A DNA stretch of 64,000 nt from Mycolicibacterium porcinum. GTDB lineage: Bacteria > Actinomycetota > Actinomycetes > Mycobacteriales > Mycobacteriaceae. The notes beneath the pieces were generated by a model. That model was given only the letters and a program-made list of their open reading frames with translations, ran no database searches and had not been told where the DNA came from. The stretch lies in NCBI GenBank assembly GCA_002086835.1, contig MVIG01000005.1:124001-188000 (forward strand). Reading direction: 5' to 3'. The position numbers and the translations under genes are program-made. Position 1 is the first letter of the stretch. Each line of letters begins with the position of its first letter. This document shows, piece after piece, positions 29,399-53,206 of the stretch.

Positions 29399-30013
29399 TC
29401 AGATTCCCCAGGGCTCCGTGTAGCCCCATCGGATCAATGTGTCGTCATCGAAGGTGAACGACGTGATCGAGGACAGATTGCACAACCGGCTGTGCGGCAA
29501 CGGCAGATGGGCGAGCTTGCGGCCCGTCATCGCGCGGCGCAGCGTCTCCACCGGAAGCTGGTGGCTGACGCAGACCGCCTCGTGCCCGGCCGCCTTCTCC
29601 CGGGCCCGGTGCATGGCCGCCATCATCCGGGGAGCGATCTCGTCATAGGGCTCACCCCAGGAGGGCTTCATCGGATTGCGCAGCCGCGGCCAGTTCCTCG
29701 GATCGCGCAGCGCCCCGTCGCCCGGGGCCACCCGCTCCCCCTCGAACATGTTCCACGACTCGATGAGCCCGTCATCGGTGAAGATCGGCAGCCCATGGCT
29801 TTCGGCGATCGGCGCGGCCGTCTCCTGCGCCCGCTCCAACGGAGAGGCCACCACATGGACGATGTCCCGGCCCGCCAGCCAGTCCGCGGCGGCCCGCGCC
29901 TGAGCCTGCCCGCGCTCGGAAAGGTGGTAGCCGGGCAGCCGACCGTAGAGCACCTTCTCGGGGTTGAACACCTCGCCGTGCCGCATCACGTGCACGGTGG
30001 TCCGGACCGTCAC
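29399..30013 (-). CDS. histidine phosphatase (phosphoglycerate mutase-like)
   Basis: 204 residues, Rv0525-like. The N-terminal [13 protein letters not shown] contains the RHG catalytic histidine near residue 12; the second His is in [11 protein letters not shown] near 150. Acidic and basic residues for phosphate binding are present ([11 protein letters not shown]). The family includes phosphoglycerate mutases and broad phosphatases; this size and motif set favour a phosphatase of unknown substrate. It sits directly between hemL and the TlpA-like gene, overlapping hemL by 4 nt. Confidence 0.85.
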
Positions 30014-31347
30014 TGTGTGGCCTCCGCGGCGGCCCGGGCCGCGCCGGGCAGCGCGTCGGCGATGCGCGAGAACGCGTCGTCATCCAAAGCCGCTGAGACG
30101 AACCAGGTTTCGAAGGCGCTGCACGGCGGGTACACCCCGGCTTCCAGCAGCGCATGGAAGAACGGTGGGAAGCGCCAGGTTTCGGTGGCCTTGGCCGCGG
30201 CGAAGTCATCGACCTGCTCTTCGGTGAAGAACACGCTGAGCATGCTGCCCGCGCGCTGCACCCGGTGGGCCACCCCGGCGTCGGTCAGGGCACCGGTGAG
30301 CAGGCCGGCCAGCCGGTCGGCGTTGGCGTCCACCCGGGCGTATGCCGCATCGTCGGCGTTGCGCAGCGTGGCCAGCCCGGCCGCCATCGCCACGGGGTTC
30401 CCGGACAACGTTCCGGCCTGATAGACCGGGCCGAGCGGAGCGAGCCGCCCCATCACCTCGGCGCTGCCGCCGAACGCCGCGGCAGGCAATCCGCCGCTCA
30501 TCACCTTCCCGAAGGTGAACAGGTCCGCTTCGACGGGATCGAGCCCGTACCAGCCGGCCCGGCTCACCCGGAAGCCTGTCATCACCTCGTCGAGGATCAG
30601 CAGCGCACCGTGGGCCGCGGTGATCCGGCGCAGCGCCGCGTTGAACCCGGGCAACGGCGGCACCGTGCCCATGTTCCCGGGGCTGGCTTCGGTGATGACA
30701 CAAGCGATCTCGTCGCCGAACCGGCCGAAGATCTCTTCGAGTGCCTCGACGTTGTTGTACGGCAGCACGATGGTGTCGGCCGCCGCCGCGCCGGTGACAC
30801 CCGGCGAAGACGGCAGACCCAGCGTGGCCACACCCGAGCCGGCATCGGCCAGCAGCGCATCGCTGTGGCCGTGGTAGCAGCCCGAGAACTTGATGATCTT
30901 GGCGCGGCCGGTGTAGCCGCGGGCCAGCCGGATGGCGCTCATGGTGGCCTCGGTACCCGAGTTCACCAGACGCAGCCGCTCGACCGGGGCGACCCGGTCG
31001 ATGATCTCGGCGGCCAGCTCGGTCTCCGACGGGGTCGGGGCGCCGAAGCTCAGCCCGTCCGCCGCCACCTTCTGCACGGCCTCCACCACCGCCGGGTGCG
31101 CGTGACCGAGCAGCATCGGTCCCCACGAGCAGACCAGGTCGATGTAGCGGTTGTCATCGGCATCGGTCAGCCAGTAGCCCTTGGCCGAGGTGATGAACCT
31201 GGGGGTGCCGCCGACGGAGTTGAAGGCACGCACCGGCGAGTTCACCCCACCGGGGATGACTGCGCTGGCGTCGGCGAACAGTTCGGCCGATCGCCGAGTC
31301 TTGGATACTTGGTGCTCCTCGCGTCCGCCCGCTTGCTCAACACGCAT
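30010..31347 (-). CDS. hemL: glutamate-1-semialdehyde 2,1-aminomutase
   Basis: 445 residues from ATG 31347, chosen over upstream codons because the extension would run into the 21-bp repeat; GTG 31308 is a shorter alternative. This class III PLP aminotransferase shows SVIPGG-like [36 protein letters not shown] and [10 protein letters not shown] with the PLP lysine near residue 281. It makes 5-aminolevulinate from glutamate semialdehyde supplied by HemA, so it completes the C5 route with the hem operon at 42-47 kb. Counterpart of Rv0524. The islet lies directly upstream. Confidence 0.95.
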
Positions 31348-31374
31348 GGCCACCAGTGTCCCAGCCGGTGCAAA

Positions 31375-31395
31375 TGCGTCAACTACAGGGTGTAG
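31375..31395. repeat. 21-bp direct repeat, left copy (attL-like)
   Basis: A perfect 21-bp match to 32945-32965. It begins TGCGTCAACTACAGG and ends GTGTAG. It contains the near-palindrome CTACA-GGG-TGTAG (31383-31395). It lies 28 bp upstream of the hemL start codon. Confidence 0.85.
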
Positions 31396-32086
31396 CAGTT
31401 CCGATTGCGGTGTACTAGCTTGCTGTTCACAGTGGTAGGCGCCACATGTCAAATACCGGTGTCGACCAAATTATTCTAGAGTCGGCAAACCCCGGAAACC
31501 TGTCCCCACCTGCAATAATCCGAGTGGAGCTCAAGCGCAACCGGACGCCGCCAACCGACGTTGAACGTCGAGACATGATCCCCCACCTCGGAGTACGAGG
31601 TCGCGATGTTGCGCGGCGGCCTGTGGGAGTTCCTCTTGAAGAACAAGAGACACGAAACGTGATGAGGCTGGATCGCGGACACATCACGCGAATCCGTCGA
31701 ACGGCATACCTCGAAATTGTTCTGCTGCACCCGCGGCTCTTGGATGAGTTCCTGTCGAAGAAGAGCCGCGGCGCGATGACGACGTTTGGGCTGGCGACTT
31801 CTTCGCACCCGGCGTGTGGTGCCCGGCGGACGGTCCTCTGGACCCGGCGGCGTCGCCGACCTCACGCGCTTGCGGCAGATGACCGACCCGCTGTGGCGCC
31901 CGGACGGCATGTAGTCGGCCCGACATCAACTCCAGATTCTTCGTCGCAGCTTTGGTGAAGACCCAGCAGAAATGGGCTGCCTGATGAGCACGAAATGAGT
32001 ATGCGAAACAGCCATTGAGCAGCTATCACCGCTGGTAGCGTCACCGCTGAAGTTTTCGTCACCATGTGACGAGGGGGAACTGAACA
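31396..32086. other. gene-poor left part of the islet
   Basis: About 690 bp without a supported gene. The longest plus-strand frame (31446-31958, 170 codons) and an opposing frame on the minus strand do not resemble known proteins; the plus frame ends in an Arg-rich stretch typical of random high-GC translation. Another plus frame ends VADLTRLRQMTDPLWRPDGM before a TAG at 31912-31914, which could be the tail of a decayed gene. Base composition from ~31430 to 31760 is richer in A and T than the flanks. Confidence 0.4.
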
Positions 32087-32743
32087 ATGTCATCTGCTGA
32101 ACCACCGCCACCACGACCTGCGCCGGGGTGGTACCCCGATCCGGCAGGCAGCGGGACACAACGGTACTTCGACGGCACCAGGTGGGGCCAGTTCGCTCCG
32201 CCCTCGGCGCCTCCGCCGGCCCCGGCGTCGCCACCGAAAAAACCCGCCTCGACAACGCAGAAGGTCTTTGCGGTGATCGGTGCCGTCATTCTGCTGTTCA
32301 TCGTCGGTAAAGCGTGCGGTTCAGGCGACAAAAACGACGATGCATCGACCGCGCGGAGCACGTCACCGAGTAATTCAACATGGGACAGCCCCACCACTTC
32401 GGCAACGCCCACCTATAGCGAAGAAGAGATCGAATCAGCTGTCATCGACACGTGCCAGAACGCCATCAAGAAGAACCTCAAAGATCCTGACAGCGCGAAG
32501 TTCGACGACGAATGGAAAGCCTGGATCGTCACCAACACGAGCTCGCCACCGAAGGTGACGTATCACCCCGAGAACGGGGACAAGCTGTACTCAGCAGGCG
32601 GCGGCGTCAATGCCAAGAACAGCTTCGGGGGTTATGTCGGGTCGCAGCCGTACGGCTGCGATGCATCCGTAACCACCGACGGCGATGTTCGCGCTCAGGC
32701 CTACTCCCTCGAAGATCTCCTGAATCCGACCCAGACGCCGTAG
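32087..32743 (+). CDS. DUF2510 membrane-anchored protein
   Basis: 218 residues. The N terminus is a DUF2510 module (PGWYPDPAGSGTQRYFDGTRW, with its Trp-Tyr-Pro-Asp and Arg-Tyr-Trp pattern), then a Pro-rich stretch, one membrane helix near 63-78 (VFAVIGAVILLFIVG), a Ser/Thr-rich linker and an extracellular domain with two Cys residues (DTCQNAIKKNLKDPDSAKFDD; YGCDAS). A GAGGGGGA ribosome site precedes the ATG. DUF2510 proteins are frequent in actinobacterial and phage-derived accessory loci; function unknown. It is the only intact gene of the islet. Confidence 0.8.
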   Translation: MSSAEPPPPRPAPGWYPDPAGSGTQRYFDGTRWGQFAPPSAPPPAPASPPKKPASTTQKVFAVIGAVILLFIVGKACGSGDKNDDASTARSTSPSNSTWDSPTTSATPTYSEEEIESAVIDTCQNAIKKNLKDPDSAKFDDEWKAWIVTNTSSPPKVTYHPENGDKLYSAGGGVNAKNSFGGYVGSQPYGCDASVTTDGDVRAQAYSLEDLLNPTQTP

Positions 32744-32784
32744 ACCACCACCACCCGGCTCAGTAGCTCGTAGCTCACCATGCC

Positions 32785-32952
32785 TCACTCGGCCCCCAGC
32801 GCGCCAGGGCCGATGTTGAGTTCCATCGAGTAGCCCCGGTCGTGGTTACAGGACCAGTGCGCGCCTGCCCAGTTGTTCCGGTCGGGGATGAGTTCCGGGC
32901 GTTCCTTCACCGGCAGCTTGTGATCGAGACTCCAGCTTTCGGGGTGCGTCAA
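32785..32952 (-). pseudogene. HNH endonuclease, C-terminal remnant
   Basis: Minus-strand translation gives about 55 residues: HPESWSLDHKLPV, then ERPELIPDRNNW, AGAHWSCNHDRGY and a short tail to TGA at 32785. The DH...N...H..C...RG pattern is the core of phage-type HNH nucleases. The N-terminal half, including the zinc-binding CxxC usually found there, is absent. In frame, a TAG inside the 21-bp repeat precedes the fragment, so the gene was cut at the repeat. It is too short for standard ORF filters and easy to miss. Confidence 0.7.
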
Positions 32953-32965
32953 CTACAGGGTGTAG
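32945..32965. repeat. 21-bp direct repeat, right copy (attR-like)
   Basis: Perfect copy of 31375-31395. It overlaps the broken 5' end of the HNH remnant and ends 9 bp before the stop of the deazaflavin-type reductase gene. The pair thus marks both edges of the islet. Confidence 0.85.
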
Positions 32966-32974
32966 TGGGAGCGG

Positions 32975-33361
32975 TCACCCGGCGGGAGACAGCGCGAACA
33001 CCGGATGGTCGGCGTCGTCGGGCAGGTCGCGGAAATAGCCCTCGACCACCTTGCCGGCCAGCGGGCGGTAGGCCGCGATGATCGGGGCTCGCTGCTCGAC
33101 CGGGACCTCGGCCGCCAGATAACTGGCCTTGCCCAGAGTCACCCGCGGATTGGCCCGGATGTTGCGCACCCACTCCGACTCGCCACGGGTGGAGACCAGA
33201 TACTTGACGCCGTCGATCTCCGGAACCACAACCGGGATCTGCTGCGGCTGTTTGCTGACCCGGGTGGTGACGGTCAGGGTCTCGCTGTGGCCGATGCCGG
33301 TGGCCATCGCGATCCGATTGAACACCTTCTGAACGAACCACGGGGGCTTGAGGTAGGCCAT
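32975..33361 (-). CDS. deazaflavin (F420)-dependent nitroreductase-family protein, copy 1
   Basis: 128 residues from ATG 33361 (MAYLKPPWFVQKVFN); the longer frame adds a non-conserved extension. The split-barrel Ddn/FDOR-B fold is indicated by the N-terminal KPPWFVQKVFNRIAMATG, the YLVSTRGESEWVRNIRANPRVTL segment and a C-terminal HPVFAL. Such proteins bind F420 and reduce quinones, nitro compounds or other substrates; many also lack defined activity. It was probably adjacent to hemL before the islet arrived, being on the same strand with the same 21-bp sequence behind it. Confidence 0.82.
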   Translation of the reverse strand: MAYLKPPWFVQKVFNRIAMATGIGHSETLTVTTRVSKQPQQIPVVVPEIDGVKYLVSTRGESEWVRNIRANPRVTLGKASYLAAEVPVEQRAPIIAAYRPLAGKVVEGYFRDLPDDADHPVFALSPAG

Positions 33362-33423
33362 GCCACCAGTCTCGGCACATAACGCCCGGCGCGCCAGAGG
33401 TGGAAATCCGACCACGGTAGGTT

Positions 33424-52211: not shown

Positions 52212-53072
52212 TTACTCAGATGTAATTCCGAGCTGCTCAGAGCGCGTTTTCGCGGCCTGAACGGCGTTGGCGACCGCGGCCCGCAGTCCCCCACGCTCAA
52301 GTTCCCGCAGCCCAGCGGCGGTGGTCCCGGCCGGCGAGGTCACCATCGCCCGCAATTGGGCCGGTGTGGTGTCCAGCGCGGCGCCTCCGGCCGCATTCAC
52401 CTCGTCGAGGCGTTCCAGCAGCATCGCCGCCGAGCCCGCCATCGTCTGCACCGCCAGATCGGTCGACACCGCACGCGACAGACCCGATTCCACGGCCGCA
52501 TCGACCAGCGCCTCGACCATCAGGAAGAAATACGCCGGGCCCGAGCCGGAAACCGCGGTCACCGCATCCAGCTGCGACTCGGCGACGGTGATCACACCGC
52601 CGACCGCGTCGAAGATCGACGAGACCTCCTTGAGCTGGTCCGCGGTGGCAAACCGGCCCGGCGCCAGCGCACTGATCCCCCCGCCGACCACGATCGGCGA
52701 GTTGGGCATCACCCGGATCACCGGCGATCCGGCCGGAAGCTTGTTTTCGTAGTACGACGTGGCCACACCCGCCGCGATCGAGACGAACACCTGCTCGGCG
52801 GTGTCACTGTCGGCCCGCACCGCCGCATCGGCGATCTCGTCGATCACCTTCTCGACGTCGGCCGGTTTCACCGCGATGACCACGTAGGTGGCGCTCTCGG
52901 CGGCCGCCGCGACCGAGGTCACCTGCACCGAGTACTTCTCCGCCAGGAACTTGGCCCGGTCACCGAACTTCTCCGCGACCACCATGTCCTTGACTTGCCT
53001 GCCAGCCCGTAACAGCCCCGACAGCAGCGCCTCGCCCATGCTTCCGCCGCCGATTATCGCGATTCTCGACAT
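52212..53072 (-). CDS. proC: pyrroline-5-carboxylate reductase
   Basis: 286 residues from ATG 53072 (MSRIAIIGGGSMGEALLSG), chosen because the Rossmann motif begins at once; a GTG at 53114 is in frame but adds a non-conserved extension. The C-terminal half has GSGPAYFFLMVEAL and LRELERGGLR with the dimer/substrate region. It reduces pyrroline-5-carboxylate to proline. No ribosome site is visible before the ATG; a short uORF reads across it, so translation may be coupled to that. Counterpart of Rv0500. Confidence 0.93.
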   Translation of the reverse strand: MSRIAIIGGGSMGEALLSGLLRAGRQVKDMVVAEKFGDRAKFLAEKYSVQVTSVAAAAESATYVVIAVKPADVEKVIDEIADAAVRADSDTAEQVFVSIAAGVATSYYENKLPAGSPVIRVMPNSPIVVGGGISALAPGRFATADQLKEVSSIFDAVGGVITVAESQLDAVTAVSGSGPAYFFLMVEALVDAAVESGLSRAVSTDLAVQTMAGSAAMLLERLDEVNAAGGAALDTTPAQLRAMVTSPAGTTAAGLRELERGGLRAAVANAVQAAKTRSEQLGITSE

Positions 53073-53110
53073 GGGCGACAGCATCCCATGTCCTGGCAGA
53101 GGGGCCGCAT
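53054..53110 (-). CDS. cysteine-rich 18-residue uORF overlapping the proC start
   Basis: ATG at 53110 lies five bases after a GGAGG motif. The encoded peptide is MRPLCQDMGCCRPCRESR, stop TAA at 53054, which is 16 bp inside proC in another frame. Four of 18 residues are Cys. Overlap with the proC start fits a termination-reinitiation or attenuation role. No homology is claimed. Confidence 0.35.
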   Translation of the reverse strand: MRPLCQDMGCCRPCRESR

Positions 53111-53206
53111 TCACGCCTCCGGCTCAGGACTGGATGATTCGCCTCCGGCTCAGGACCGCATGATTCGCCTCCGGCTCAGGACCGCATGATTCGCCTCCGG
53201 CTCAGG
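53109..53206 (-). repeat. 26-bp tandem repeat of micro-cistrons before proC
   Basis: Two perfect 26-bp units (53137-53162 and 53163-53188), a partial unit (53189-53206) and a diverged 28-bp unit (53109-53136). Read on the minus strand each unit contains TGA-GCC-GGAGG-CGAATC-ATG-CGG-TCC-TGA: a ribosome site six bases before a three-codon frame (Met-Arg-Ser). The first stop in the series is that of the thioesterase gene. Confidence 0.85.

Follow-up and report, generated by a model that had tools for sequence, protein, structure and literature searches.

A 1.5-kb islet inserted with a doubled 21-bp host sequence upstream of hemL in Mycolicibacterium porcinum, a likely remnant of an integrated element

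Prophages are commonly delimited by the short sequences at which they join the chromosome. In passages of a survey of M. abscessus prophages, junctions are defined by a core that is common to both ends of the element and that occurs singly in element-free strains (PMC8092301). The same passages give cores of 3 to 25 bp for tyrosine-integrase prophages at non-tRNA sites and of 5 to 8 bp for serine-integrase sites. A small islet beside hemL in Mycolicibacterium porcinum, described here, resembles the M. abscessus prophages at non-tRNA attB sites, as these passages present them, in having short identical cores at its junctions, a single core in element-free relatives, gene content of possible phage type, and a cargo gene with a relative near a prophage end. 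However, the islet measures about 1.5 kb and has no integrase, structural, or lysis genes, whereas those prophages span 40 to 70 kb (PMC8092301). It is also like the mycobacterial defective prophages and candidate phage-inducible islands that are treated in parts of a second study (PMC10654092), which are reduced, have att cores, and keep few phage genes; the integrated elements described in those parts have an integrase, but the islet does not, and it therefore lacks the internal integrase of an intact prophage or satellite. Insertion sequences, as another class of mobile DNA, share with the islet a target that is doubled at both ends, but the transposase and terminal inverted repeats by which insertion sequences and transposons are recognized were not found in it.

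The islet lies within a 64,000-nucleotide stretch of M. porcinum DNA (hereafter, the window), between two copies of the sequence TGCGTCAACTACAGGGTGTAG, one at positions 31375 to 31395, forming an attL- or attR-like junction on the hemL side, and the other at positions 32945 to 32965, on the side of a reductase gene. The copies agree at 21 of 21 positions and are spaced 1,570 bp apart. An earlier note on this DNA had reported the pair as exact and without further copies, had judged chance recurrence very unlikely, and had pointed to a CTACA-GGG-TGTAG dyad within the repeat. These observations hold: the dyad is present in the 21-mer, about 0.005 exact 21-mer pairs are expected in 64 kb under a composition-only model, and no third copy with two or fewer mismatches occurs in the whole 6.96-Mb genome. 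Allowing three mismatches adds a single place, C11:58209, with three, and the stretch from 31300 to 33100 matches its own genome once, at itself.

The dyad was also considered as the mark of a genome-wide operator family or regulon. The pattern ACTACANNNTGTAGT, with one mismatch allowed, occurs at 11 places in the genome, a count that includes the two repeats, versus 28 for a reversed control pattern, giving no sign of such a family. Separately, the near-copy at C11:58209-58230 (L004) holds an exact ACTACA-GCG-TGTAGT dyad directly upstream of an open frame that, named by eye, is GNAT-like acetyltransferase, and a DNA-binding protein of the same kind may use this dyad as its site. The open frames neighboring C11:58209, inspected by eye for a trans-acting partner of the islet, include no integrase. 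Elsewhere in the window, shared 18-mers revealed a tandem direct repeat, exact and with a period of 26 bp, at 53134 to 53185 and just beyond, whose unit starts ATGATTCGCCTCCGGCTCAGGACCGC and which lies directly upstream of an open reading frame on the minus strand (52212 to 53114).

Both flanking genes are host genes on the minus strand. An open reading frame at 30010 to 31347, with a likely ATG at 31345 to 31347, is hemL, and a gene for a deazaflavin-dependent reductase-type protein (F420H2_quin_red) occupies 32975 to 33415. The earlier note had suggested looking in close relatives for an empty site in which a single copy of the 21-mer joins these two genes. Such sites exist in three relatives: G020 and G021, identified in a search of 61 genomes, and G351, picked up through a search for the core. 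G351 and G021 have the 21-mer without a mismatch; in G020, 19 of its 21 positions match. Sequence to the left of copy 1 and to the right of copy 2 carries on as in these single-copy sites, and when the two flanks of the islet are joined, they align in one block with each relative, covering 3,788 bp at 93.3% identity through the junction in G351, passing through the core in G020, and starting shortly before the core in G021. For hemL, the reductase, and the next gene, respectively, protein identities are 97%, 95%, and 93% to G351; 94%, 90%, and 77% to G020; and 95%, 81%, and 74% to G021, which makes G351 the closest of the three by this measure. The interior of the islet (1,549 bp, 31396 to 32944) has no match in any of them; as a positive control, the same query finds itself in its own genome. 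Since three relatives have one copy of the core and no islet, insertion of the islet with doubling of 21 bp is well supported. Two outcomes that the earlier note had named as speaking against insertion did not materialize: the segment is not common to close relatives, the whole islet being confined to this genome among 396 congeneric genomes, nor does the 21-mer recur as a motif at numerous unrelated loci, as judged by the genome search and by the hemL-adjacent loci described next.

The doubled sequence is widespread at this position. A 16-mer, CAACTACAGGGTGTAG, occurs in 213 of the 396 congeneric genomes (206 of the 361 of good quality), and only two genomes have more than one copy, namely, this one, with two in the same direction, and G131, with two in opposite directions. 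In G131, the hemL region is present twice on a single contig, in opposite orientations (C34, near 109.7 kb and 221 kb; L085 and L086), with one 16-mer in each matching copy; this is either an artefact of assembly or a large inverted duplication. Of 29 relatives chosen for their similarity in the hemL region, a site within six mismatches of the 21-mer is present in 26 and missing from 3 (L025, L029, and L033). Its 13-base centre is present in 56 of 59 loci (L006 to L064, of which 30 were chosen for holding the 16-mer and among which some genomes are represented twice), and in 56 of 56, alignable hemL begins 16 to 155 nt away. Moreover, the exact 21-mer was found in 16 records of a species-level genome collection, all of them labelled as mycobacteria, with one copy each; hemL adjoins it in 15, and in the remaining record (L132), the stretch compared starts 3 bases before the core. 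The islet is absent from all 16 records, a single 22-base match in L133 being attributable to chance.

Because the core recurs upstream of hemL across the genus, the repeat is, by this conservation, a long-standing host sequence, a point overlooked in the earlier note. It begins 28 nt before the likely ATG of hemL, and this position suggests that it may be part of the hemL promoter or operator. A sigma-70 scan of 31250 to 33100 returned no promoter-like site, and no described role for a dyad upstream of hemL was found in the literature. The hemL region was also considered as an insertion hot spot by examining four genomes in which reductase-type genes lie 1.5 to 8 kb from the core (G018, G030, G015, and G027). 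With a crude frame filter, the intervening DNA of G018, G030 (whose 8 kb were partly covered), and G027 contains ordinary-looking genes and no integrase by eye, and that of G015 yielded no frame.

The islet itself has few recognizable genes. Between the repeats, the earlier note had described AT-richer sequence, a DUF2510 protein, and a broken HNH gene but no integrase, and each part of that description was borne out. GC content is 60.7% in the islet versus 67.4% in the window. The first 690 bp or so (31396 to 32086) are without recognizable genes and presumably decayed: ten frames tested there gave no Pfam match and one PHROG match only at an E value of 0.27. RNA families likewise have no match from 31200 to 33200. 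DNA matches to this left part in G015, G028, G203, G397, and G248 are short and fall in long, unrelated-looking coding frames, and so they were set aside as chance. Across all islet frames tested, no integrase or transposase family was matched in Pfam or PHROG.

To the right of this stretch, on the plus strand at 32087 to 32743, is an intact gene for a 218-amino-acid protein (the cargo protein) with a DUF2510 domain (Pfam E value, 1.2e-8) and a C-terminal part resembling phrog_2320 (E value, 6e-21). It is 63% identical over 205 amino acids to a protein of G001, and because dN is 0.24 and dS is 1.16 for this gene pair over 213 codons, there is a sign of selection acting on the protein. A role in superinfection exclusion was considered and is not claimed, since the PHROGs concerned match weakly (E values of 0.001 to 0.003) and over a membrane stretch. 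The other recognizable gene is a C-terminal fragment of an HNH endonuclease, 55 codons long, on the minus strand at 32788 to 32952, with an open frame that extends into repeat copy 2. It matches 46 phage records by tblastn, with an E value of 4e-5 for the best of those listed, and its match to PF01844 (E value, 0.0011; 19.6 bits) falls just below the curated cutoff of 21.4. With either the cargo protein or the HNH fragment, NCBIfam and PADLOC gave subthreshold or weak matches only. At the DNA level, 81 of the 396 genomes match the islet, nearly all through short pieces of the DUF2510 region, and the longest match outside this genome covers 740 bp at 70% identity, in G001.

Some relatives of the cargo gene lie near prophage ends or lysis genes. 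The cargo protein matches 82 records of a phage collection, among those listed mostly via its C-terminal part. Two M. abscessus prophages, GD08-3 and GD25-1, have its relative, accompanied by toxin and immunity genes, in the interval from the lysis cassette to the prophage end; the GD25-1 gene is followed by a tyrosine integrase gene and the annotated att site. The C-terminal part is present at an E value of 1e-8 or lower in 4 of the 396 genomes: this one, G001, G357, and G220. The G220 relative has two endolysin-type genes and a holin gene upstream and adjoins an open frame that by eye resembles an HNH nuclease. Genes near the G001 relative encode a DnaB-like helicase and a zinc-finger protein with matches to HNH families. 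The cargo gene and its HNH-type neighbor are arranged tail to tail in the islet, G220, and G001, an agreement in orientation that is only a hint of a shared arrangement. As a separate observation, the G001 region (C77; L110 and L090) adjoins bioB, and in addition to the DnaB-like helicase and the zinc-finger protein, it contains DUF2510-type proteins and, named by eye, WXG/ESX-like open frames; perhaps it is a genomic island.

In searches for the source of the islet, distant blastn returned no plasmid matches and three phage records, two of them of one phage, over 88 query bases inside the DUF2510 gene. The 16-mer occurs in three viral contigs, with unrelated phage genes in the two that were examined. 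No phage carrying the core was found, and 35-mers spanning the junctions matched the phage collection only at chance level (E value of 4). A search for exact cores in one genome per species found no element with a cognate integrase at the same core, and no intact relative of the islet element was found.

In our view, the islet is likely what remains of a site-specifically integrated element that was later reduced; a temperate phage or a phage satellite is the most likely identity of that element. According to this model, the integrase of the element would have recombined a 21-bp attP core with the identical chromosomal core upstream of hemL (attB), leaving one core at each junction as attL and attR. 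Internal deletion and decay would then have stripped away the integrase along with almost every other gene, leaving 1,549 bp with the intact DUF2510/phrog_2320 accessory gene and the tail of the HNH nuclease. The inserting agent was probably a tyrosine integrase, since lost, because a 21-bp core fits the 3- to 25-bp range of tyrosine integrases and not the 5- to 8-bp range of serine integrases. The islet is probably immobile now. In support of this reading are the single-copy sites in relatives, the conservation of the core upstream of hemL across the genus, the lack of terminal inverted repeats, the actinobacteriophage-like HNH fragment, and the cargo relatives near prophage ends or lysis genes. 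Counting against it, neither an integrase, nor an intact relative, nor a core-bearing phage was found; the left 690 bp have no recognizable phage content; the HNH match is weak; and the cargo gene is also present in G001, in a region that may lie outside any prophage, and in G357, in an ambiguous setting.

A still-mobile version of the same idea, in which the islet is a small cassette that is excised and reintegrated by an integrase supplied in trans from another element, seems improbable to us. Both 21-bp cores are intact and identical, as such a cassette would have them, and three places in the genome exceed the family cutoff for tyrosine integrases (PF00589; C6, C10, and C30, of four places in total), but no other place in the genome has the core at two or fewer mismatches, no second cassette was seen at the site in the 213 genomes where the 16-mer is exact, and the nuclease gene is a fragment. 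The earlier note had offered an excisable or trans-mobilized element and a prophage scar; the scar fits best, and the mobile option is unsupported, with no further core at two or fewer mismatches in this genome and no other 16-mer pair apart from the inverted duplicate in G131.

We give similarly little credence to a transposon-like insertion that made a 21-bp target duplication. A doubled target also marks transposition, and some mycobacterial insertion sequences make long target duplications. Set against this, the islet has no transposase match and no inverted match of at least 6 bases within its outer 80 bases that could serve as terminal inverted repeats, and transposition usually involves a loose choice of target, unlike the conserved sequence with a dyad that is seen here. 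It is just as doubtful that the islet arrived with imported chromosomal DNA, or by short-homology recombination at the conserved hemL-upstream sequence: many relatives have the core, and it could provide the short homology, but a 21-bp match is a short substrate for homologous recombination, nothing in the alignment of the flanks to G351 (93.3%, 91.6%, and 89.1% identity) points to an imported block, and import would merely shift the question to the donor.

The remnant of an integrated element, our preferred reading, is a real insertion of an ordinary kind at an attachment site for which we found no earlier report. A hemL-upstream site is absent from the passages of PMC8092301 that we drew on, the word "semialdehyde" is absent from the main texts of both prophage studies, and "hemL" is absent from the main text of PMC10654092; the supplementary site tables may list it. 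Literature matches for glutamate-1-semialdehyde and integration concern Xylella and Francisella, not mycobacteria. A bolder proposal, which we regard as rather unlikely, is that an unknown family of mycobacterial integrative elements uses the conserved hemL regulatory sequence as its attachment core, such that the copy brought by the element would keep the control of hemL intact while a second copy ends up at the far junction; the islet would then be the first fossil of that family.

With empty sites in relatives as the comparison, the islet is a clean case of site-specific insertion outside a tRNA gene. Its modest interest rests on the conserved target, and it points to a conserved dyad upstream of hemL. 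Because much of the genus shares the site, which lies beside a gene for haem synthesis, an integrase acting on it, if found, could yield a broadly usable integration system.
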